From Cornus controversa (Eukaryota; Streptophyta; Magnoliopsida; Cornales; Cornaceae), in contig CM048851.1 in the NCBI GenBank assembly GCA_026545225.1, forward strand, positions 34,871,956-34,935,955: 64,000 bases of DNA, written 5' to 3'. Each line of letters begins with the position of its first letter. Positions within the stretch are counted from its first letter, which is position 1. Made by a program: the position numbers and the translations under genes. The notes under the pieces were generated by a model. The model searched no databases and was not told the origin of the DNA. It saw nothing but the letters and a program-made list of their open reading frames with translations. Shown here piece after piece: positions 8,658 to 60,281 of this stretch.

Positions 8658-9065
8658 TTGAAAATATGTATGCGTGTGTGTATGTATATATTTGTGCATG
8701 TGTGTATAGGGGAGAGAGAGAGAGATTGTCTGTACTTGGCAAGCTTTGGCGGGATTAGAAGAGGAGGGAGAGAAAAAACTAAAAAGTTGGAGATATGTAT
8801 GCGTGTGTGCATAAGGAGGAGAGAGAGAAGTTGTCGGTACTTGGCAGGTTTTGGCGGGATTAGAAGTGGAGGGAGAGAAAAATCTAAAAGAGTTGGAGAT
8901 GCGGGGGATCGAACCCCGTGCCTCTCGCATGCAAAGCGAGCGCTCTACCATTTGAGCTACATCCCCTGTTGACGGTTAGGACTTCTACCATAAATATTAT
9001 TATAACAAAAGTAGTAGTTGAGCTAAATGTACTTGTATTTGCCATTTGTTACTACTGCCCTTAAA
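8658..9065. repeat. tRNA-Ala duplication unit 1
   Basis: Flanks of the intact tRNA gene. The left flank (from ttgtcggtacttggcagg to gaaaaatctaaa) recurs before each of the three other tRNA copies. It also occurs once more without a tRNA at 8735-8810. The right flank (ttgacggttagg, then tattattataacaaa) recurs after the other copies. Unit 1 and unit 4 share the longest right flank. Confidence 0.75.
8894..8966 (-). tRNA. tRNA-Ala (anticodon TGC), intact
   Basis: 73 bases. The acceptor arm pairs GGGGATG with CATCTCC (one G-T pair) and the discriminator is A. The D arm carries GCTC...GAGC. The anticodon stem CTCGC/GCGAG closes the loop TTTGCAT, giving TGC, which reads GCA-family Ala codons. The T arm is CGGGG-TTCGATC-CCCCG. 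A box (TAGCTCAAATGGT) and B box (GGTTCGATCC) are intact. A TTTT run lies about 10 bases past the 3' end on the minus strand, a Pol III terminator. CCA is not encoded, as expected for a nuclear tRNA. Confidence 0.95.
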
Positions 9066-10713: not shown

Positions 10714-10787
10714 CAGAGATGCGGGGGATTGAACCCTTTGCCCTCTCGCATGCAAAGCAAGCGCTTTACCATTTGAGCTACATCCCC
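10714..10787 (-). pseudogene. tRNA-Ala(TGC) pseudogene, copy 2
   Basis: Same arms as the intact gene but with an extra base in the variable region. The T stem is broken (AAGGG opposite CCCCG) and the B box is changed to GGTTCAATCC. The anticodon TGC is kept. It lies in duplication unit 2 (about 10610-10860). Confidence 0.8.
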
Positions 10788-11665: not shown

Positions 11666-11738
11666 TGGAGATGCTGGGGATCAAACCCCGTGCCTCTCAC
11701 ATGCAAAGCGAGCGCTCTACCATTTGAGCTACATCCCC
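11666..11738 (-). pseudogene. tRNA-Ala(TGC) copy 4, mildly degraded
   Basis: 73 bases and closest to the intact gene. The acceptor and anticodon stems pair and the anticodon is TGC. The T loop has TTTGATC instead of TTCGATC, losing the invariant C of the B box, and the T stem has one mismatch. It is probably inactive, though weak expression cannot be excluded. Confidence 0.7.
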
Positions 11739-18079: not shown

Positions 18080-21000
18080 ATGGAAGCCAATAATTCTCCA
18101 TTCAAGGTATGAATCAGAATTACATCCTCAAAACAATTTTTTTTTGAATGTTAATTTTTTTTTTTTTTAAGAATGTTTAGTTATTGGTGAGAACGAGAGA
18201 GAAGAAATTCCTGCACACGTAAACATTTTTTTTTCTATTGTATTCTTTACCAAGGACCAAACGCAGCGAAGAAAATTTGATAATGCTTTGAAGTACTGGT
18301 TTAATTATAATCACATCTTACTTACGAAAAAGATTATTAATACTAATAGCCATATCTTCGTTTATAGATTATGCCTTTTCTTGCAATGTTCTTGTAATTT
18401 ATGTGTTGATGTGCTTTTGTTACTCCCAGGACAGGCCGATGATTCCGTGAATCCTCTTCAGTTTGATTAAAATTGCTATTTTGACTTTGGGGACCGTTTG
18501 GGTCAAGTTTTTTTTAACACATTCAAATGATTGGTAGCTCATTTGCATGTTAAATTTTTTTTTTTTTAGTTGTAGTCTAGGCCAACTACTGAAATAAGGT
18601 ATTTGCCAGATAACTAGGAATTTCTTAGATGATGTGGTTTATATATTTATACATTTTTCTTTTTAATATCTGATTTTGGGTAATCATCTTCAATATATGT
18701 TTGTTGGTTTGTAAAAGTACCTGTCATTTTGGATGGTCTTCAAATGTGGGAGTGTTGAAATAAAGATATCACATGCTCTTGAACTTTGAAAACTTTCCAG
18801 AAGTTGCATCTCATATGTGGTTGAAGTACTAGAGTATGCTTTTACTCATCTTAGAGTGTTCCTTCAATATCCCAATTTAGATCCTGAGAAATTGATGCTG
18901 AAAGTGTAGTATTATATTGATGGATAATTTTATTTTCCAGCCTCCAATACAATTGTAATTTGTTTGGAACAATATGTGAGATGTACCCTTTTGAGGATTC
19001 ACTTTGATACTCGATTTTTTCTATAATTCTACACAAATATCATCCACAAAATCAGGTAAAAGACGGCAATTATATATTTATGTAAGCATTGAGTTATCAT
19101 GCAGATAATCTTGGGATCATCTTCAGTGGCGCGTCGGAAAATTTTAGCTGAGATGGGATATGAATTCACAATCATGGTATATCCTAGTCAAATTTCTACT
19201 ATATTTATTGTAGATTTCAAGAAGTTAAACTCTTCTTATAATTTAGACAGCAGACATTGATGAGAAAAGTATTCGGAAGGAGAAGCCGGAAGAGTTGGTT
19301 ATGACTCTTGCAGAGGCAAAGGTAGTTTTTTTTTTTTTTAAATAAAAATTCAGAAAACAATTATTTAGATGATGTTAAAATTACAAGTTTTATTTCCTAG
19401 GTCTTATGTTTGGCCTCTAACCTAGAAATGCAGTATATTAATGTAAAGCTCCTATTATGATTTATGACACATCATTACTACCTTGCCTTTTATGTTAATG
19501 AGATATTTTTAGTGCCTAACCCGGTATATCTTGTTGTGACTGCGTCATAGGGGTTTTAAATTGTATTTTATGTACATCATATTTTCTTTTATCATCTCTA
19601 TATTTTCTTCTGGTCTGTCTGTTCATCTTCTTTCTTTTATGCACTGTATTTAAGATGTAGGTATTTGGTTTTTAATTTCTTCCATTGGTTGGTTTTAAAT
19701 TTTATTGCATCTCAGGCTGATGCAATCATATCAAAGCTTCACGCTACTGATATGCAAGAGAAGGATGTCAAACCAACACTTTTAGTTGCCGCTGACACAG
19801 TATGTGTTATTTCCTTTTGTTGTTGCTGTCTATATATTCAACTGGGCTCTTCAAGTCTGCTATCACCTAGTGCCATCTATGAACTGAGGATATAATGCAT
19901 TTTGAAGGAGGTGAAAATCTCTTTGCATTTCCAGCACCCGAGGTCCTCTTGGGTCATGGTAGCTAGAACAAAATAGCACTTCACTTTGAGTTACTTATTT
20001 GAGCATGGCTTAAATATTTTCTGGGATTATTAGTAAAACCTTGTCAGTTCCAATTTTTTTTCTTTTATGAACTTTCCTGTTGTCTTGATTTACTTGAGCA
20101 TGAATTTTTAGTTTTTCTATTTTCAAAAAGCATTTCATGAATTTTATGTGAATGCTATAATTAAAATTAGTTTTTTGCTTAATCTGTGAATACTGGAATT
20201 TTTAGGCTGAGCACATGTAAATTTTGACCAACAAATGTATTATAATATAAGTAAAGGTGAAGTGCAACAAACACCCTCATGATATGCATACAGCGCATAT
20301 AACCCCATCCAGTTTGAAATACACCCTTAAACTAAACAAATGATGCAAAGGAGGGCTTGCGGCCAAGTTGCCGTTAATGGAAGAGCAAAATTACTCGAGT
20401 ACCCTTACAAGAGAGGAATAAAAGTAAAATAAAAAAATAGAAATGTTGAAAAGACGAAAAAGGGCAAACCACCTTATATGCACTCTCTCTCTCTCACTAG
20501 TCCCTTTGATTCTTACTTCGTAACCTATCTCTCTCCCTCTCTCCCACGATTTTCGCTTGAATGCTGAGATCAGCTCCGTGGCCACCGTCCTCCGCCAGAG
20601 GTGGCAATTCGTGTTGGCGGGTCATAATTGTGTTGAATCGTGTCGTGTCGATCTATGAGTATTTTGCTAAACAGGTTAGCCCAAAAACGACCTGTTTAAT
20701 AATCATGTCAGGGACCCTTGACATGAACACGACCCGTTTATTAAATGGGTTACACATGTTAACCTATTTAACTTAAATGGATCAAGTAACCTGTTTATTA
20801 ACTTAAGTACAAAATGTAAATATTTTGAAAAAAATTAGATAATAGATGACTAAATTCATGAAAATAATAATAATTGAGACAATACAATTACAAAAAAGGC
20901 CAAAAATAATATTCATATTGAAATAATAGAAATGTCCACAATAATTGGGTTAAAATAGGTTACGGGTTCACTTGTCACGATTACAACACGATTAATTAAA

Positions 21001-24000
21001 CGGGTCTAATCAAGTTAAACGGGTTGAACTCCAAAACATGAACATGACACGATTAATTAAAGTTAAACGGGTTGACATGATTATGACACGAACACGATTA
21101 AGGTAAACCAAAATCCTCTAACTTTGTGTCTCGTTCGAGTCATGTTGGCGAGTCGTGTCGAATTTTGCCATCCCTAAGGACCGCCACTACCCCACACCCT
21201 GTATCAACCTTGTTTTCGGCCTAATCCATGAAACCCTCCTTTGGAATTCCCTCAAACACAGCGGCCTCGATGCCCTCCTTCACGAAACCTTCTCTTCTCA
21301 GAGTGCAAAACTGGGGATTAGCGACCTTCCCGATCACATAAAAGAAGTGGGTTGGGATGTGATTTTGGCGTCGAGAGGATATCGGCAATATTCACCGCCG
21401 GCATCCAACCCTGGTTTGTCTATGTGATTAGGTATATATCCAGAGAATTGTTTGTAAGTTTGCCCATTGTTTTTTGGTCTATGTTTGCATGTCATGTTAG
21501 GCCCAAAGTAGAAATAGGAAATGGTGACGTGGTGAACATGCTCTTCTGCACACAAGACATGTTTATTACCAGAATGTATTTGCAGAAACTCTATGGGAAC
21601 ATAAATTGGTGTTGCTATTACAGAATTTGCCCAATGTTTCATCTTTTAGCCCAATGGATAATATGTTGATTAATGATTCCAAGTCTAGCATTGTAAATTT
21701 TATGTGAGGAGCAAGACAGATGCACGTGTTCACATGAAATTGATAGGGAGGTGGAGAGAGTTTGTAGTTGTAAAAGTTTGTAGTTCGGAGAGAGAGAGAG
21801 AATATGCTTAAGGGCATTTTCGGAAGAGAGAAGGGGTATTTTCGGTTTTTCGGATGTTAAATATGTCATGTGCAATGGCACACTAACGCAAGCCCTTGTT
21901 TGTAACATTTAAAAAAAAATAAAGACTTGTATGCACAACAGAAACTATAAGGGTGTTACGTGCACAAAATGTGAACCTTGGGGGTGATTTTTGCATAGCT
22001 GATAGTTTATGCCTGCCTTTATCTATACGTAATATTTTTCGTTATAATTTATTTTGGCCGGTAGCCTTTACTTAAAGCCACAAATCTATCTCAGATCATG
22101 ATGCTGTGATATTCAATTGTTGCAGGCATAAAATTATTTTCGGATATGTAGCCGTCATTGCATTTCTTTACGCTCTCTGGGCTGCTTTACATAGTTCCAT
22201 ATTATTACTTTTACTAGGCACTCGCCTTACTTGATGGACTTTTTTGTCAGGCAGAAGCCATCATTCCAAAGTTCCCCACCGATGATTACAGCAAGGATGC
22301 CGAGCCAACTCTCTTAATTACCTGTGATCAAGTATAAAATGATTTCTTTGTCACCATTTTTCTAGGTTACTCATCATATCTTTGGCTCATGTCTTGCATT
22401 TTCAAGTTTGAAGTAAACTTCAAGTCATGTTAATGTTAAAATGCAGCAAATTTTGCCTCAAGAAACCAAATCTATGGCATATATTTCTATTTCATGGGGA
22501 GTGGCAGTGGTTTTTGGGTAGCACTTTGCATTTCTAAGGTTGATTTGCAAGGTTATCTGAGATGAACACGTTTGCTTATAAAAATTGGAACTTAGTGATG
22601 CAATTATGGGATCAAGGGGTTAGGATTCTTACATTGCTTGTCAGGAAAAAAAGCTTAATGTTCTAATATTTCATTCTTTCAAGAGAATCTTTTTATGAAA
22701 GTGAGAAACCGAAGGGAGGCCAAAGGAAAGGGAATGAAATCCATGTTGTAGCAGGTGTTTTTTTTTAATACAAATATGAATAAAAGCAACTTTGTTATTA
22801 TATCAATTGATAGCCTGACAAGATAAATTTATATCTACTGCAAGTTTGTTTGCATTACTCTGTTTTTCTTTTTTTCTATTTGAAACTCACACACTCACTT
22901 TGCCCCTACGGGGACTTGAACCCTCAACCTTCTACTTTGGAAGGTGAGAAAGTACCGCTAAGCTACAACCCTTGGTGTTTGCGTTACTCTGTTTCCCTGT
23001 ACCTATTTTATATTCATCCATTCATTTGGTCTAAATATGCGTGACTGTCAAGTTACCTGCAAAATTAAGCCACTATTTTTTTTAAAGTAAAATTTTTCTG
23101 TGAAACCAGAGGAATACCCCAATTTTTATTCAATCTGTGAGTTTTGCATGTTAGATGCCTTTTACCTGCCTGCTTGTGGATCTTAATTTAACTATGCTTT
23201 GTGATTGCCTCTGGTAAGGGTTGTAGATTTTCCCTAGTGTGATATTTCTTATGCCCAGATGTCTATGGTGTGCATTTATACTTTGTATCCTCGTACATAA
23301 ATGGCCTATGGGTGATAGGACAAGCCTGTACACAGTCGGGGTGTAACCCTTTTTCCTGTTTATTGAGAAAGGGAAATATGTTTCTTGTTTTATCTTACCG
23401 CTAAAATTTGTATGATTTGGAGGTGGTGGTATATGAAGGTGCAGTCAGAGAAAAGCCATCCAACGAGGAAGAAGCACGCCAATTCATCAAAGGTTTGCTT
23501 CATATTTCTACCACGTCCCTCGCTGTAGTATTTTTCTGTGCCTTATGGTCTTAGCAACATGAATTCTAGGTTATTCTGGTCGGCACGCAGCAACAGTTAG
23601 TTCTGTTCTTGTTACGAACCTAAAGACAGCGGTCAGAAAAGGAGGATGTGACAAAGTGGAGGTACTATTTATGTCTTATGTTTTCTTTATGATTAGTTCG
23701 GAAGTCAAAGTTGTAGTGAATTTTTTCATGAGTTATGTTTTTGTGGATTTTAAGGGGGATATTCTTATCAAAAAAGAGATTTCAAATTAACTTAGTTGAT
23801 TAAATTAGGTGACACTAATACCTGGCGAAGTTAAAAAGGAATAAAATGCAATAAGTATCTGATACCAGTTATATGTTATCCCATAAGCATGCTAAATACC
23901 TTGTAGTTGGCATTTATATCAACAGAAGAACATATTTATTACAACATAACTTGTTCCCTACACTTCCCAAGGATGGAAAAATTACCTCTCTGCCAGCCAG

Positions 24001-25418
24001 TAACATTCAGAATTACAGAACCAGCCACAGGAAAAGAGAGACACATTCTTTTATGTGATGTTGATGTGAAATTATAAAACATATACAAATTGAGACACTA
24101 AATGAATGGTGGTAGATCTTTCATAAAAAAGGCTCAAGTAATACTAGCAGTATCTTTTCAGTCTGTTTTAATATTGATTGGAATTTAATACTTTAAAATG
24201 AATGGCTCACTAATGGATGCTTAAGCTTATCTGGATGTATTGATTCTTCGTATAGTAGAAGGCTTTAGAGTAACATTGATGTTACTGTCTATGTTTAATG
24301 TAAATGCACAGTTGTAATTAGGTCTAAGGATCAAGTCCTCTTGGGTGCCAACAATTCTTTGGGGTGTGTGTGTACCAACTAGGAAAAAAAAAAGCACAGT
24401 TGTACAGAAATTATTCTACATTTAATTGATAAACATATTGTTACCTTGAATTACATCGAGAAAAAGAATTTTGTTTTCAAGTAATGGATGTGCTAGTTGA
24501 TATTGTATATGAAATGCTATTTCGTTTGAAATGTGAATCCTTTATTTTTTTAAAATTAATTTCTCAACCTATCCATAAATTTGTAATATATTGAAATAAC
24601 ACTTGTGGTGATGACTTGCAGATTTTCTTTCATGACATACCGGATCATATAGTTGATAACCTGGTAAAAGATGTTATCCCTGCAATGGGTAGTTTCTTCT
24701 TTTGTCACATGGTGACTGACTAGTTAATAGTCTGATTTGGTTCTTTTTTCTTTGTTCAGATTGAGGAGGGGATGGTGCTCAATGTTGCCGGGGGGTTGAT
24801 AATAGAACATCCTCTGATAGTACCCTATGTTAAAGAAGTGGTTAGTTTCGAAATCTATCTCATCTCTTAATGTCAATGTATAAAAGATAAATCATTGTCA
24901 TATGTGGCATATTAATTAGAACATACAAGGCTGGGACAACCATGACTCACTATTTTGTTGGTGGGGCATTTTGATCCAAAACATTGTCTGATGAACATAG
25001 TCAACTTATTTTAAATGGCACTTGAGGGACATCTGGTGCACACTTGGGGTATAGTTTTTCCCTTGGATTTGGGAAGGGACAGTTGAGGTCTGGGTTGTGC
25101 TGATAGCTACCAGACCGTTTACTACACATCAAAAGCAACTATATTTGTTGTATCTGGAAAAGAAACATTTTAATGATCAAATTGACATTATATGCTGGTT
25201 GTGCCTTGGTTAGATTTTATGCTCTTTCCTTTTCAATCTCTTGCAAAAATCCTGGAAGCTCAAACTATCCAATAGATCAGGTTGAACAGTCCATTGTTCA
25301 TAGCACGTCTCTAGAAATTAATATCAATTTGTAATGCTTTGTGCAGGTAGGGACAACTGATAGCGTTATGGGACTTCCCAAAGTTCTTGCAGAGAAATTG
25401 ATAAAGGAGGCACTCTAG
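18080..25418 (+). CDS. Maf/HAM1-type nucleoside triphosphate pyrophosphatase, with duplicated exon 4
   Basis: Complete plant Maf-like gene. Maf enzymes hydrolyse non-canonical or pyrimidine NTPs to NMP and pyrophosphate. Exons: 18080-18106, 19105-19176, 19247-19321, 4a 19716-19799 or 4b 22251-22331, 23423-23492, 23570-23661, 24622-24663, 24760-24840 and 25347-25418 (TAG). All introns are GT-AG; the product is 204 aa with 4a or 203 aa with 4b. Residues 10-21 hold IILGSSSVARRK, the N-terminal substrate loop. DIDEKSIRKEKPEELV follows. The catalytic Asp is in AADT (4a) or TCDQ (4b), followed by VVVYEG and REKP. Near the C-terminus GTTDSVMGLP matches the family's VVGLP motif. No transit peptide is visible, so it is probably cytosolic. 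Exons 3, 4a and 4b all begin and end in phase 0, so either exon, both or neither keeps the frame. Confidence 0.93.
19716..19799 (+). other. Maf exon 4a (ADT version)
   Basis: 28 codons, starting ADAIISKL and ending PTLLVAADT, with acceptor tctcag and donor gtatgt. ADT followed by VV from exon 5 is the motif of YhdE-type Maf proteins (dTTP/UTP pyrophosphatases). Arabidopsis At5g66550 carries this type, from memory. Confidence 0.9.
20540..21427 (+). pseudogene. Captured gene fragment of unknown family, split by an insertion
   Basis: The left part reads DFRLNAEISSVATVLR and the right part reads HYPTPCINLVFGLIHETLLW, then SGLDALLHETFSSQSAKLG, then ISDLPDHIKEVGWDVILASR. The two parts are in one frame if bases 20596-21184 are ignored. 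That length of about 115 codons without a stop, with GC higher than the surroundings, suggests genuine former coding sequence. I do not recognise the protein. Confidence 0.45.
20596..21184. mobile_element. hAT-like element nested in the captured fragment
   Basis: Left end cagaggtggcaattcg; right end tttgccatcccta, which complements to tagggatggcaa. Inside are cgggtcgtgt and ttaaacgggt phrases, typical of a common plant repeat. Flanks tcctccgc and aggaccgc share only the last four bases, so the target duplication is unclear, but skipping the span restores an open frame. Confidence 0.55.
22251..22331 (+). other. Maf exon 4b (CDQ version)
   Basis: 27 codons, starting AEAIIPKFPT and ending PTLLITCDQ, with acceptor ttttgtcag and donor gtataa. 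It is a diverged copy of exon 4a: same phase, same start (A-x-AII-x-K) and same KDxxPTLL core. A DQ dyad at this site is the mark of YceF-type Maf proteins (m7GTP pyrophosphatase, SDQ in E. coli). Arabidopsis At5g42770 carries this type, from memory. No stop or splice defect is seen. Confidence 0.9.
22866..22975 (-). mobile_element. tRNA-derived SINE in a Maf intron
   Basis: On the minus strand it reads gggttgtagcttagcggtac through gagggttcaagtccccgta, a tRNA-like head with A and B boxes, then gtgagtgtgtgagttt and an A-rich tail. It is flanked by 19-bp direct repeats at 22847-22865 and 22976-22994 (tgtttgcattactctgttt with one A/G change), a retroposition target duplication. Confidence 0.85.
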
Positions 25419-55080: not shown

Positions 55081-55847
55081 TAGAGTGTGAATTTAAGAAT
55101 AGTAAAGATAAGTTTATGAGTAATGAATCCTAAATTAATTGTATTGGCAAAAAAAAATTAACCTAAAAAGATTTTATAAGTTGGTGAAATGTGAATTTAA
55201 GGATGGTAGAGTTAGGTTTAAAGGTGGAGAAATCTAAATTAACTATGTTGCAAAAAAAATTAATTGAAAATAATTTAATATTTTGTAGATATAAGGGTAA
55301 TGAGATTTGGATTTAAAGACGGTGAAGTTAAGTTTAAGAATGGTGAAACCTAGATTAATTATGTTGAAAAAAAATTGATTTTGAATAAGTGAACATTTTG
55401 TAAGCATAAGGAAATGGAATGTGGATTTAAGGGTGGTGGAGGTAGGTTCAAGGGTGGTGAAACCAAAATCCAACTGTGTTGACAAAAAAGTAAATTGAAA
55501 AAAATTAAGATTTTATAAGTTATAAGGGTGGTAAAATGTAGATTTGAAAATAGTGAAATATAGATTTAAAGGTGGTGAAATATAAATGAATTGTGATGAC
55601 AGAACATTAACATATAATAATGCAAGGTTTTTTAGTTATAAGGGTGGTGAAATATACATTTAAGAGTGGTGAATTATATATTTAAAGATGGTGAGGTATA
55701 GATGAATTGCAGTGACAAAAACTTAACTTATAATAATTCAAGCTTTTTTTAGGTATAAGGGTGGTGAGATATAGATTTAAGGGTGATGAAATATAGATTT
55801 AAATGTGGTGAAATATAGATAAACTTTGGTGACAAAGAATTAACTTA
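55081..55847. repeat. Minisatellite array, left part
   Basis: About six or seven degenerate units of the same family as 58042-59960, with agggtggtgaaat(a/g)tagattt and gacaaaaa..taacttataat phrases. Divergence rises toward the left end, as expected at the edge of an old array. Confidence 0.85.
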
Positions 55848-55852
55848 TAATA

Positions 55853-58036
55853 TGTGAGACCCCGATACATGATAATTCTCATTAGCATAATTTAATTTTT
55901 GAGTAAACATGAATTATATATGAACGTTTTGTATGTACAATAAATTGGGAGGAGATAGCATGTAGCATGCCTATAGTGGGTTGTATTGTGAAGTTTATTT
56001 TATGCATACTAGTAGGTTTAACTATTGTAGGGTGTTAATTAGAAGTTATGTTTTAGTATATCTAAATATTAATTTAGAGTTAGTGAGGTGCTTGTGGAAA
56101 ATGAAATGGTTTAGAAGGGTTAGAGGGCAAATAACTTGAGAGGGTGATGTACAAATTTAAAGTGTTGAAGGAGGTGAAGTGCAAATGATCTGAAATGGGG
56201 CTAGGTGTCAAAATTTGGTGTCAAAGACAAGAGTAAGCAATATAGATCAGATTGGGAAAAAAGCTTATCTCTATAACTCTTGTACCTTATTTGGCAAAAT
56301 AAATTTTAGAGTCTTAGAGTTGTAGAGAAGTCAAGAGAGAGGAGACTAAGCAAAGAGGAGGAAGGAAAAGAAGAGAAATTCAAGTTAAATACTTATGAGT
56401 TCTATGATTCATTAGCTTTCATGTTTTATGTTGATTGTAATTTATATATATGATTTTGTATAGCAAATCATTGAAGGAAGGCATGAAATCATCATGTATG
56501 CTTGAATATGTGTGTGTAGAGGAAAAGTGTAATATTATGTGAATGGTAGAGTTAATTTTTATGGTTTTGATTGTATTTTGTTGGTATAAAATGAAGGGAA
56601 TCATGTTATAAATATGTTCTATGATGATTAGTAGGAACTAGAAGTACTATATATGAAGTTTGCATGAAAAAGAAGTGAAAAAGATGAAAAACATGCTCTG
56701 CAGACAGCTTGAAGTCACCTTATAAGAATGACTATAAAATATTGTAAAAAATTCGGATTTGAGTTCTGTTTGTTGGGTTGGAAAGTAGACTGGTAGAGCT
56801 TTTCAGAAATGTATGGTAGACCACCTAGTTCTTTCTGAATCGAAACAGTTTAATTGTTGAAGTTTAGTAAAAAACAGGGACTGTGGGAGAGATAGAATTG
56901 AAAACAGTCCATTATTTTGCTTATTTATGAAAAACTAACCATTGAATCATGCTCTAATTTTAGTATGATGTTCTTGCATATGTTTCCTATCTACTATAAA
57001 ATTTGTAGGCCAACTGGATGTCGGGAAGTCCTTCATTTGGAGTGAAAATGTGGACAGCATGTAGGGAAGAAAATATATACTTGAACTTGCAATTGTGAAG
57101 GTGTTAGATTGAATACTTGGAGTGTGTGGTATAATTAGTGTAATTAATCATATTAGTATTGATTTGGAAGGTGGTGCAACAATGTTTACTTGTAAGGTAA
57201 GGTAAAGGATGAGCTTGATATTCTTGCTTACAATGTGTTTGACAAAATGTTCCAATGAGCTTATAGTTATGATTATCATGATTAATCCTTGAAATTTATA
57301 TGAATGAAATTTGTGATGATTGTTGTCTTCTTATATTTAGAAATCTATATGATGTGAGTATAATGTCCTATAGGCAAGGAGGAAGAACTACACCCTCAAC
57401 AACAACAGGATAAGTAAACAAGTTGGAAGATACCCAAGGTGAGTGCTTCCACTAGAAGTGTATTATTTGAATGTATACATTGAAGTATGAGAAATGTCTA
57501 TATGATGTGAAGATACCTATATAGTATGAAGATGCTTATAAAGCATGAAGATGCCTATAAGGCATGAAGTTATATAAGGTCCATACTCTAGCTAAGAAGG
57601 AGAGTAGAAAGTTATAATATCTATATAGTTTGAAATTATCAGATGATATCCATGATTATTATTCTGATGTAGTAGTGTTACATTCACTGGGCTTTAGGCT
57701 CACTTTTGTTATATATATATGTTTTTCAGGTTCAAAGTTTTGTAGCCACTGCCGAGTCTAGAGTCTTGGGGATTGGATTGGGAAATGAGGAGGATGAAGT
57801 GTTTTGTTTAACATGTAATTATTGTAGAGGAGTTTTATGGTAAACTCATAATGAGAAGTGTTGTGATGGTGACTACTTGTAATATAAGCTTGTGATTTGT
57901 TTGTATTTGTAGATTATTAAATATGCATTCTAATGTAGATTAATGTAAATTTTGTTTGATATTAATGAAGATGGTTAGATACACTTCAATTGTGCACTAA
58001 TTTATATTATGATATAAATTGGGTTGGGGTGTGTCA
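55853..58036 (+). mobile_element. Solo LTR (2184 bp) inside the minisatellite
   Basis: Starts TGTGAGACCCCGATACATG and ends GGGGTGTGTCA, with inverted TGTGA.../...TCA ends. It is flanked by identical 5-bp target duplications taata (55848-55852 and 58037-58041). Near the end, cactgggctttaggctcact resembles the conserved LTR segment around the polyadenylation site of plant gypsy elements. There is no gag or pol and no second LTR. Orientation follows that segment. Confidence 0.8.
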
Positions 58037-58041
58037 TAATA

Positions 58042-59960
58042 TTTCAAGTTTTTTTAGGTATAGAGTGGTGAAATATAGATTTAAGGGTGGTAAAATATAG
58101 ATTTAAAGATGGTGAGGTATAAATGAAATGTGGTGACAAAAAAATAACTTATAATATTTCAAGTTTTTTTTAGGTATAAGGATGGTGAAATATAGATTCA
58201 AGGGTGGTGAAATATAGATTTAAAAATGGTGAGGTATAGATGAAATGTGATGACAAAAATTTAACTAATAATATTTCAAGTTTTTTTTATATATAAGGGT
58301 GGTGAAATGTAGATGAATTGTGGTGACAGGACATTAACTTATAATAATCTAAGTTTTTTTTAGTTATGAAGACGGTGAAACATATATTTATCGGTGGTGA
58401 AATATAGATTTAAAGATAGTGAGATATAAATGAATTGTGGTGACAAAAATTAACTTATAATATTTTAACTTTTTTTTTAGGTATAAGGGTGGTGAAATAT
58501 AAATTTAAGGATGATGAAATATAGATTTAAATGTAGTGAAATATAGATGAACTTTGGTGACAAACAATTAACTTATAATATTTCAAGTTTTTTTTAGGTA
58601 TAAGAGTGGTGAAATATAGATTTAAGGGTGGTAAAATATAGATTTAAAGATAGTGAAGTATAAATGAAATGTGGTAACAAAAAAATAACTTATAATATTT
58701 CAAATTTTTTTTAGGTATAAGGATGGTGAAATATAGATTCAAGGGTGGTGAAATATAGATTTAAAAATGGTGAGGTATAGATGACATGTGATGACAAAAA
58801 TTTAACTAATAATATTTCAAGTTTTTTTTATATATAAGGGTGGTGAAATATAGATTTAAATGTGGTGAGGTATAGATCATCTGTGGTGACAAAAATTTAA
58901 CTCTTAATATTTCAAGTTTTTTTTAGGTATGGTGGTGAAATATAGATTTAAAGGTGGTGAGGTATAGATGAACTGTGATGACAAAAAATTAATTTATAAT
59001 ATTTCAAGTGTTTTTAGGTATAAGTGTGGTGAAATATAGATTTAAGGGTGGTGAAATATAAATTTAAAGGTGGTGAGATATAAATAAACTTTGGTGACAA
59101 AAAATTAACTTATAATATTTCAAATTTTTTTAGGTATAAAGGTAGTGAAATATAGATTTAAGGGTGGTGAAATATAGATTTAAAGATTGTGAGGTATAGA
59201 TGAAATGTGGTGACGAAAATTTAACTAATAGTATTTTAAGTTTTTTTTAGGTATAAATGTGGTGAAATATAGATTTAAGGGGGGTGAAATATAGATTTAA
59301 AGATGGTGAGATATAGATGAAATGTGGTGACAGAACATTAACTTTAAATAATTCAAGTTTTTTTTTTTGTTATGGGGGTAGTGAAATATAGATTTAAGGG
59401 TGATGAAATATAGATTTAAAGGTGGTGAAGTATAAATGAATTTTGGTGACAAAAAATTAACTTATAATATTTCAAATGTTTTTAGGTATAAGGGTGGTGA
59501 AATATAGATTTAAGGGTGGTAAAATATAGATTTAAAGATGGTGAGGTATAAATGAAATGTGGTGACAAAAATTTAACTAATAATATTTCAAGTTTTTTTT
59601 AGGTATAAGGGTGATGAAATATAGATTTAAGGGTGGTGAAAGATAGATTTAAAAGTGGTGAGGTATAGATGAAATGTGGTGACAGAACATTAACTTATAA
59701 TAATTCAAGTTTTTTTTAGTTATGAAGGTGGTAAAATATAGATTAAGGGTGATGTAATATAGATTTAAAGATGGTAAAATATAAATGAAATGTGGTGACA
59801 GAACATTAACTTATAATATTTCAAGTTTTTTTAGGTATAAGGGTAGTGAAATATAGATTTAAAGGTGGTGAGGTATAGATGAATTGTGGTGAAAAAAAAA
59901 TTAATTTATAATAATTTAAAATTTTTTTAGGTAGAAGGGTGGGAAAATGTAAATTTGGAG
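58042..59960. repeat. Minisatellite array, right part (about 16-17 units of about 117 bp)
   Basis: Each unit reads roughly ataatatttcaagttttttt, aggtataagggtggtg, three versions of a 21-22-base subunit (ggtggtgaaatatagatttaa), gtataga tgaaatg and gtggtgacaaaaattaact. Units vary mostly by loss of one subunit and by single-base changes. No reading frame runs through it. The array is continuous with 55081-55847 once the solo LTR is ignored. Confidence 0.92.
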
Positions 59961-60281
59961 ATTAAGAAGTATTTAGGAATTGTTTGCCGAATAATTTCAC
60001 ATCTTCATTTAAACTAATATTTGTAAAAGTTTTTTTAATTTTTAATTAAATCTCCAAATTGTTCCAATATTTTTTTAAAAAAAAAAAGTATCTCTTAATT
60101 ATATCCCTTATATGTATTTTGGTATATATATATATATTTTTATCAAAATTTTATTTTTTGGATTAAAAAATTTAGTGTTAGTTTGTAATTTTGTTAATTA
60201 AAAAAAATTAAAAGATGGAGCAGCGCTGTCGTCCACGCGTGGAGCAGCGCTGCTCTCTCTTCTGTCTCTCACGACAACCAT

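Follow-up and report, generated by a model that had tools for sequence, protein, structure and literature searches.

A Maf gene of Cornus controversa with two homologous versions of its catalytic exon, putatively used as alternatives

Can a single plant gene of the Maf family supply two enzymes that differ in the pocket for the substrate, by splicing in one or the other version of the exon that carries the catalytic aspartate? The question is raised by a 64 kb stretch of the Cornus controversa genome (the window, lying on a contig labelled C7; the genome comprises 772 Mb in 61 contigs), in which one Maf gene extends from 18080 to 25418 on the forward strand, with AG and GT at its internal exon borders. 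Two versions of exon 4, here called 4a and 4b, lie between exons 3 and 5, and the proteins containing them are termed isoforms A and B respectively. From sequence comparison we favour, with a probability of about 0.58, an old tandem duplication of exon 4, the two copies of which are putatively used as alternatives that alter one residue of the pocket.

Exons 4a and 4b are homologous, intact exons of one Maf gene. Each is in phase 0, is flanked by AG and GT and is free of stop codons, and they are separated by 2,451 nt, confirming the positions, frame, clean splice sites and spacing of ~2.45 kb given in the original prediction. That they are diverged duplicates is borne out by the alignment of their translations, with a global BLOSUM62 score of 57 against a shuffle maximum of 25 (none of 10,000 shuffles reached 57). 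When the six frames of the window were scanned with 4a (one residue dropped for equal length) 4b scored 64, and the next-best place besides 4a and 4b scored 22. At the level of DNA the exons are ~63% identical (51–52 of 81 positions, depending on gap placement), and the flanking intron ends are unlike. As adjacent homologues of similar length (84 and 81 nt) and the same phase, they resemble a mutually exclusive pair in layout. The translated exons end in AADT (4a) and TCDQ (4b), so the ADT and CDQ motifs differ as first described, and both forms are held at one locus in intact exons.

Membership of the Maf family is supported by full-length matches to the Pfam PF02545 profile, scoring 143.9 bits with 4a and 145.4 bits with 4b (curated cut-off 27), and by a catalytic Asp followed by Thr in the ADT of 4a and by Gln in the CDQ of 4b. 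The NCBIfam model TIGR00172 counts against it, giving 107.7 (4a form) and 107.4 (4b form), under its bacterial cut-off of 117.15. All four combinations of the two exons are open and in frame with no stop, predicting proteins of 204 residues with 4a, 203 with 4b, 231 with both and 176 with neither.

The arrangement suggests the following scheme. A coding exon that encodes the catalytic Asp together with the base-pocket residue following it would have been duplicated in tandem long ago. Mature transcripts would then contain one copy or the other between exons 3 and 5, so that two enzymes are built upon one backbone. The alternation of Gln and Thr in the pocket would then alter substrate preference. 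The Pfam scores are consistent with use of a single exon, being slightly lower when 4a is inserted before 4b (141.9 bits) and much reduced on skipping both (112.2 bits).

The Maf subfamilies have a signature of three residues, R-T-Q in YhdE and W-Q-E in YceF (PMC3899018). Alignment with 2AMH and YceF places the first of these at an Ala in exon 2 (SSSVARR) and the third at a Glu in exon 8, and exon 4 contributes the middle residue only. With Ala and Glu fixed by the constant exons, isoform A reads A-T-E and does not have the R-T-Q of YhdE. Isoform B reads A-Q-E, agreeing with the aromatic-Q-E of YceF at positions 2 and 3 and not at position 1. The proposed division into a YhdE-type and a YceF-type exon is thus supported only in part: isoform B comes near the m7GTP-type YceF-like class, isoform A does not match YhdE, and to speak of a single gene encoding both established types of enzyme is too strong. 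Isoform A resembles the YhdE-like class (Bacillus subtilis Maf 1EX2/4HEB, YhdE and ASMTL) in its ADT motif, but has neither Arg at position 1 nor Gln at position 3. With the YceF-like class (Tb-Maf1 2AMH and Escherichia coli YceF 4JHC) the gene shares the family and Glu at position 3, to which isoform B adds Gln at position 2. The gene departs from that class in having Ala rather than an aromatic residue at position 1, and isoform A departs from it further by carrying Thr at position 2. Among solved structures both isoforms match 2AMH best (B with 97.1 bits, A with 90.1); this is Trypanosoma Tb-Maf1, classed as YceF-like (PMC3899018). Exchanging 4b for 4a lowers the score against YceF 4JHC from 48.7 to 42.8 and raises that against B. 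subtilis Maf 1EX2 from 48.5 to 52.3.

The combination of residues was surveyed in bacteria around two metagenome-assembled genomes, which held the sole relatives found in a scan of contigs. Among 80 bacterial genomes from the phyla of these two, 75 had a Maf match. Eighty of the 85 matches listed were read, of which 79 aligned to the plant query by blastp and one did not. Taking residue 1, the Asp, residue 2 and residue 3 in order, with a dash for an unread position, the 79 comprise 67 RDTQ, one QDTQ, one RDSQ, one RDT-, five YDQE, one FDQE, two YDQ- and one -DQ-. In the 75 that could be fully scored Thr is paired with Gln in 68 of 68 and Gln with Glu in six of six; the single Ser likewise goes with Gln. 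A-T-E was not found among these 75, which come from two phyla only and include a small Gln class; a dTTP/UTP specificity for 4a, as originally proposed, is on this ground not confidently predicted. As Gln is accompanied by Glu in the six readable bacterial proteins and in Tb-Maf1, the Gln-Glu combination is plausibly ancestral and Thr-Glu derived. The presence of Glu at position 3 in the window gene and in its paralogues (see below) suggests the same, with a Thr-Glu pocket that arose within the duplicated exon.

How much one such residue might achieve can be judged from published mutants. In YceF the substitutions W12A, Q70A and E154A raised the KM for m7GTP from 33 to 217, 173 and 79 µM respectively, with kcat/KM remaining within ~1.4-fold; in YhdE R12A shifted kcat/KM on dTTP 2.2-fold, the maximum (~2.2-fold) for single mutants, and the Gln was proposed to discriminate against unmethylated GTP (all from PMC3899018). 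On this evidence the choice of Gln or Thr may tune affinity or discrimination rather than switch the enzyme from m7GTP to dTTP/UTP.

A second Maf gene is present in the genome as a tandem pair on contig C2 (16424431–16430683 and 16438598–16444880, both on the reverse strand). Of the 615 coding bases compared, 2 differ between the copies, pointing to either a recent duplication or an unresolved haplotype. The exon lengths match those of the window gene (27, 72, 75, 84, 70, 92, 42 and 81 nt), the last coding exon being longer by two codons. There is a single exon 4 of 84 nt ending in ADT, with the donor ACA|GTATG as in 4a. The C2 introns yielded no second version of it: in these loci tblastn with 4b rose above noise only at exon 4 itself. 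The signature is A-T-E, and the best solved relative is again 2AMH (81.2 bits, using a query without the last two residues). Isoform A resembles this paralogue, as the C2 gene also combines A-T-E with an ADT exon, and the A-T-E mixture absent from the bacterial sample is a normal state in C. controversa. A genome search with the protein of exon 3 (end), 4b, 5 and 6 (start) revealed no CDQ exon besides 4b (4 of 4 candidates scored), and by protein search the window locus is single-copy. A Pfam family search of the genome gave no Maf match, probably because single exons are too short; the protein query found the loci. No relative was found in a scan of viral contigs. Phage and plasmid searches returned distant bacterial Maf genes, all below 60% identity, the best at 30.4% for phages (15 of 15 records) and at 31.2% for plasmids among the matches listed (20 of 43).

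The exon duplication and the gene duplication look similar in age, and three short sequences are too little to tell which came first. By the Nei–Gojobori (NG86) method, applied here to short sequences, the nonsynonymous and synonymous distances (dN and dS) between the C7 and C2 genes minus exon 4 are 0.155 and 1.005. The corresponding values are 0.436 and 0.852 for 4a and 4b, 0.363 and 0.754 for 4a and the C2 exon 4, and 0.469 and 1.549 for 4b and the C2 exon 4. Over gap placements the nucleotide identity is 56/84 for 4a and C2, at most 52/81 for 4a and 4b, and at most 48/81 for 4b and C2. The length, ADT motif and donor start common to 4a and the C2 exon favour, short of proof, duplication of the exon before that of the gene. 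The acceptor flanks run counter to this order, that of 4b being closer to the flank of the C2 exon (0 of 300 shuffles) than that of 4a (p = 0.03); the donor flanks of both are unlike that of C2.

Taking the argument further, the exon pair could be older than the split between the two plant Maf genes, and the ancestral gene would then have made both pockets by alternative splicing. The C2 copy would later have lost its CDQ exon and, in Arabidopsis for example, the other copy its ADT exon, a pair of genes thereby taking over from a single spliced one. On this view the window gene, with both exons still in place, would be a surviving intermediate stage. We offer this tentatively, as somewhat doubtful. 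Arabidopsis has one Maf gene of each form. Many eukaryotes including plants have two Maf genes (PMC3899018).

Some observations weigh against the alternative use of both exons. A codon model of the three exon 4 sequences gives omega = 0.56 with neutrality not rejected (p = 0.14; with 28 codons there is little power), and fixing omega at 1 on a single branch, whichever it is, lowers the log-likelihood by no more than 0.78 units relative to the one-omega model. The donors of 4a and 4b both lack a G at position −1, which is present in the other seven donors of the gene; the donor of the C2 exon 4 also lacks it, though no alternative exon was found there. Since double inclusion and skipping keep the frame, exclusivity would be left to regulation alone. 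These donors, the codon model and the uptake of ~1.7 kb of repeat-derived sequence by the intron between 4a and 4b would all fit a gene making essentially one enzyme, in which one of the two exons, 4a or 4b, persists as a relic that is seldom used or in decay. This is an unlikely explanation, if one that deserves serious weight, as both exons have kept an open reading frame, AG and GT, and the catalytic Asp at a dS of ~0.85. In 20,000 runs of simulated neutral drift along a branch of 0.43 the reading frame and AG/GT were kept in ~0.10 (4a) and ~0.09 (4b), and the Asp as well in ~0.035 and ~0.033, so that the neutral chance is ~0.03; the simulation had no insertions or deletions, making these figures generous to drift. 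On these figures decay of one copy is rather unlikely, and both exons are probably maintained.

An improbable history is that 4a was acquired from a paralogue of the C2 type after the gene split, by exon transfer or gene conversion, with no ancient tandem duplication. The shared ADT, length of 84 nt and donor start would be explained, as would the closest nucleotide pairing being that of 4a with the C2 exon (56/84). However, only 14 of 28 residues are identical between these two, little or no intron flank is common to them (p = 0.70 at the donor, 0.03 at the acceptor), and 4a sits beside 4b in the same phase and position. It is still less probable that both exons are normally joined in one protein of 231 residues. 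The frame would be kept and the Pfam domain still matches, but 28 residues would be inserted between LAEAK of exon 3 and the strand of 4b carrying the catalytic Asp, and the Pfam score falls 2.0 to 3.5 bits below those of the two forms with a single exon 4. As the original prediction noted, such joining preserves the frame yet parts the Asp of 4a from VVVYEG, with 4b falling between. An artefact of assembly is hardly credible. Exons only ~63% identical with unlike intron ends do not form a duplicated stretch or a haplotig, a protein search finds one copy of the locus, and no sign in favour of an artefact was seen.

If the tandem exons are indeed spliced as alternatives, what might keep them apart? 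Four means of enforcing exclusivity are listed in PMC7969005: frame with nonsense-mediated decay, U2/U12 incompatibility, proximity of the branch point to the 5′ splice site, and RNA structure. Enforcement through frame looks absent here, all four combinations being in frame. U2/U12 incompatibility likewise looks absent, as no donor of the gene begins with GTATCCT or ATATCCT, the consensus for U12 donors. Close spacing of 5′ splice site and branch point looks absent also, since the intron measures 2,451 nt and the AG exclusion zone preceding 4b covers 31 nt. The inverted repeats of the region are short and imperfect. The vertebrate OGDH gene is comparable in that its neighbouring, mutually exclusive exons 4a and 4b alter a ligand-binding property of an enzyme; it differs in that exclusion there is described as depending on distant branch points and a size-restricted intron (PMC7969005).

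About 1.7 kb of the intron between 4a and 4b looks repeat-derived. The ~580 bp repeat within it has at least 39 other matches in the genome (from the best 40 of 1563 candidates scored), and the IRX15/GXM-like fragment matches PF21729 with 44.7 bits. The outer terminal inverted repeat of the insert is weak, scoring 50 against a maximum of 48 in 300 shuffles. If the insert postdates the exon pair, the exons were formerly much closer together.

Among the records listed in searches on Maf or duplicated exons with alternative splicing in plants, no title or abstract opening reports this exon pair, which is no proof of absence from print. The available passages of papers naming AT5G66550 or AT5G42770 contain nothing on these exons, and a text search of PMC10095807 found no term for such exons. 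A Brassica napus homologue of AT5G66550 appears in a table of an alternative-splicing study (PMC7397149). A plant Maf-like protein is also described in rice, where NAL22 (with its plant orthologues) is reported to influence leaf width and cell division (PMC9962836). NAL22 has 322 residues with a C-terminal domain of its own, and splicing goes unmentioned in the available passages of that paper. Among plants, the examples of mutually exclusive exons that stand out by title are MADS-box genes (PMC3266260, PMC6243048), from which a pair altering the substrate pocket of an enzyme would differ in kind. Should both exons be used, the window gene would supply the sole CDQ enzyme found in the genome together with a second enzyme of the ADT form, in overlap with the C2 gene, and it would offer a clean test both of one pocket residue setting the substrate choice of a Maf enzyme and of spliced isoforms becoming separate genes.

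Table 1. Exons of the Maf gene and the insert in its 4a–4b intron (positions in the window)
Feature	Position	Strand	Description
Maf exon 1	18080..18106	+	MEANNSPFK; ATG start, GT donor
Maf exon 2	19105..19176	+	IILGSSSVARRK; signature residue 1 = Ala; placed by alignment
Maf exon 3	19247..19321	+	Gene model; C-terminal end LAEAK
Maf exon 4a	19716..19799	+	84 nt; ADAIISKLHATDMQEKDVKPTLLVAADT; catalytic Asp and Thr
Maf exon 4b	22251..22331	+	81 nt; AEAIIPKFPTDDYSKDAEPTLLITCDQ; catalytic Asp and Gln
Maf exon 5	23423..23492	+	VVVYEGAVREKPS; gene model
Maf exon 6	23570..23661	+	Gene model
Maf exon 7	24622..24663	+	Gene model
Maf exon 8	24760..24840	+	LIIEHPL; signature residue 3 = Glu
Maf exon 9	25347..25418	+	Contains stop; gene model
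Repeat-derived insert, 4a–4b intron	20262..21990	+	Outer bounds approximate; ~580-bp repeat (20597–21176) and IRX15/GXM-like gene fragment

The 3′ end of the intron before exon 5 (23383–23422, CTTACYGCTAAA...GATNTGG) resembles its counterpart in the C2 paralogue (0 of 300 shuffles) and is pyrimidine-poor, with a fraction of 0.5 over the last 20 nt. Elsewhere in the window there are tandem arrays at 55174–55852 and 58036–59983, with a period of ~116–117 and 22-nt subunits like GGTGAAATATAGATTTAAGGGT, and the GC skew is 0.55 over 56001–60000. Three close tRNA-Ala(TGC) predictions on the reverse strand (8894–8966, 10714–10787 and 11666–11738) may be genes or tRNA-derived repeats.

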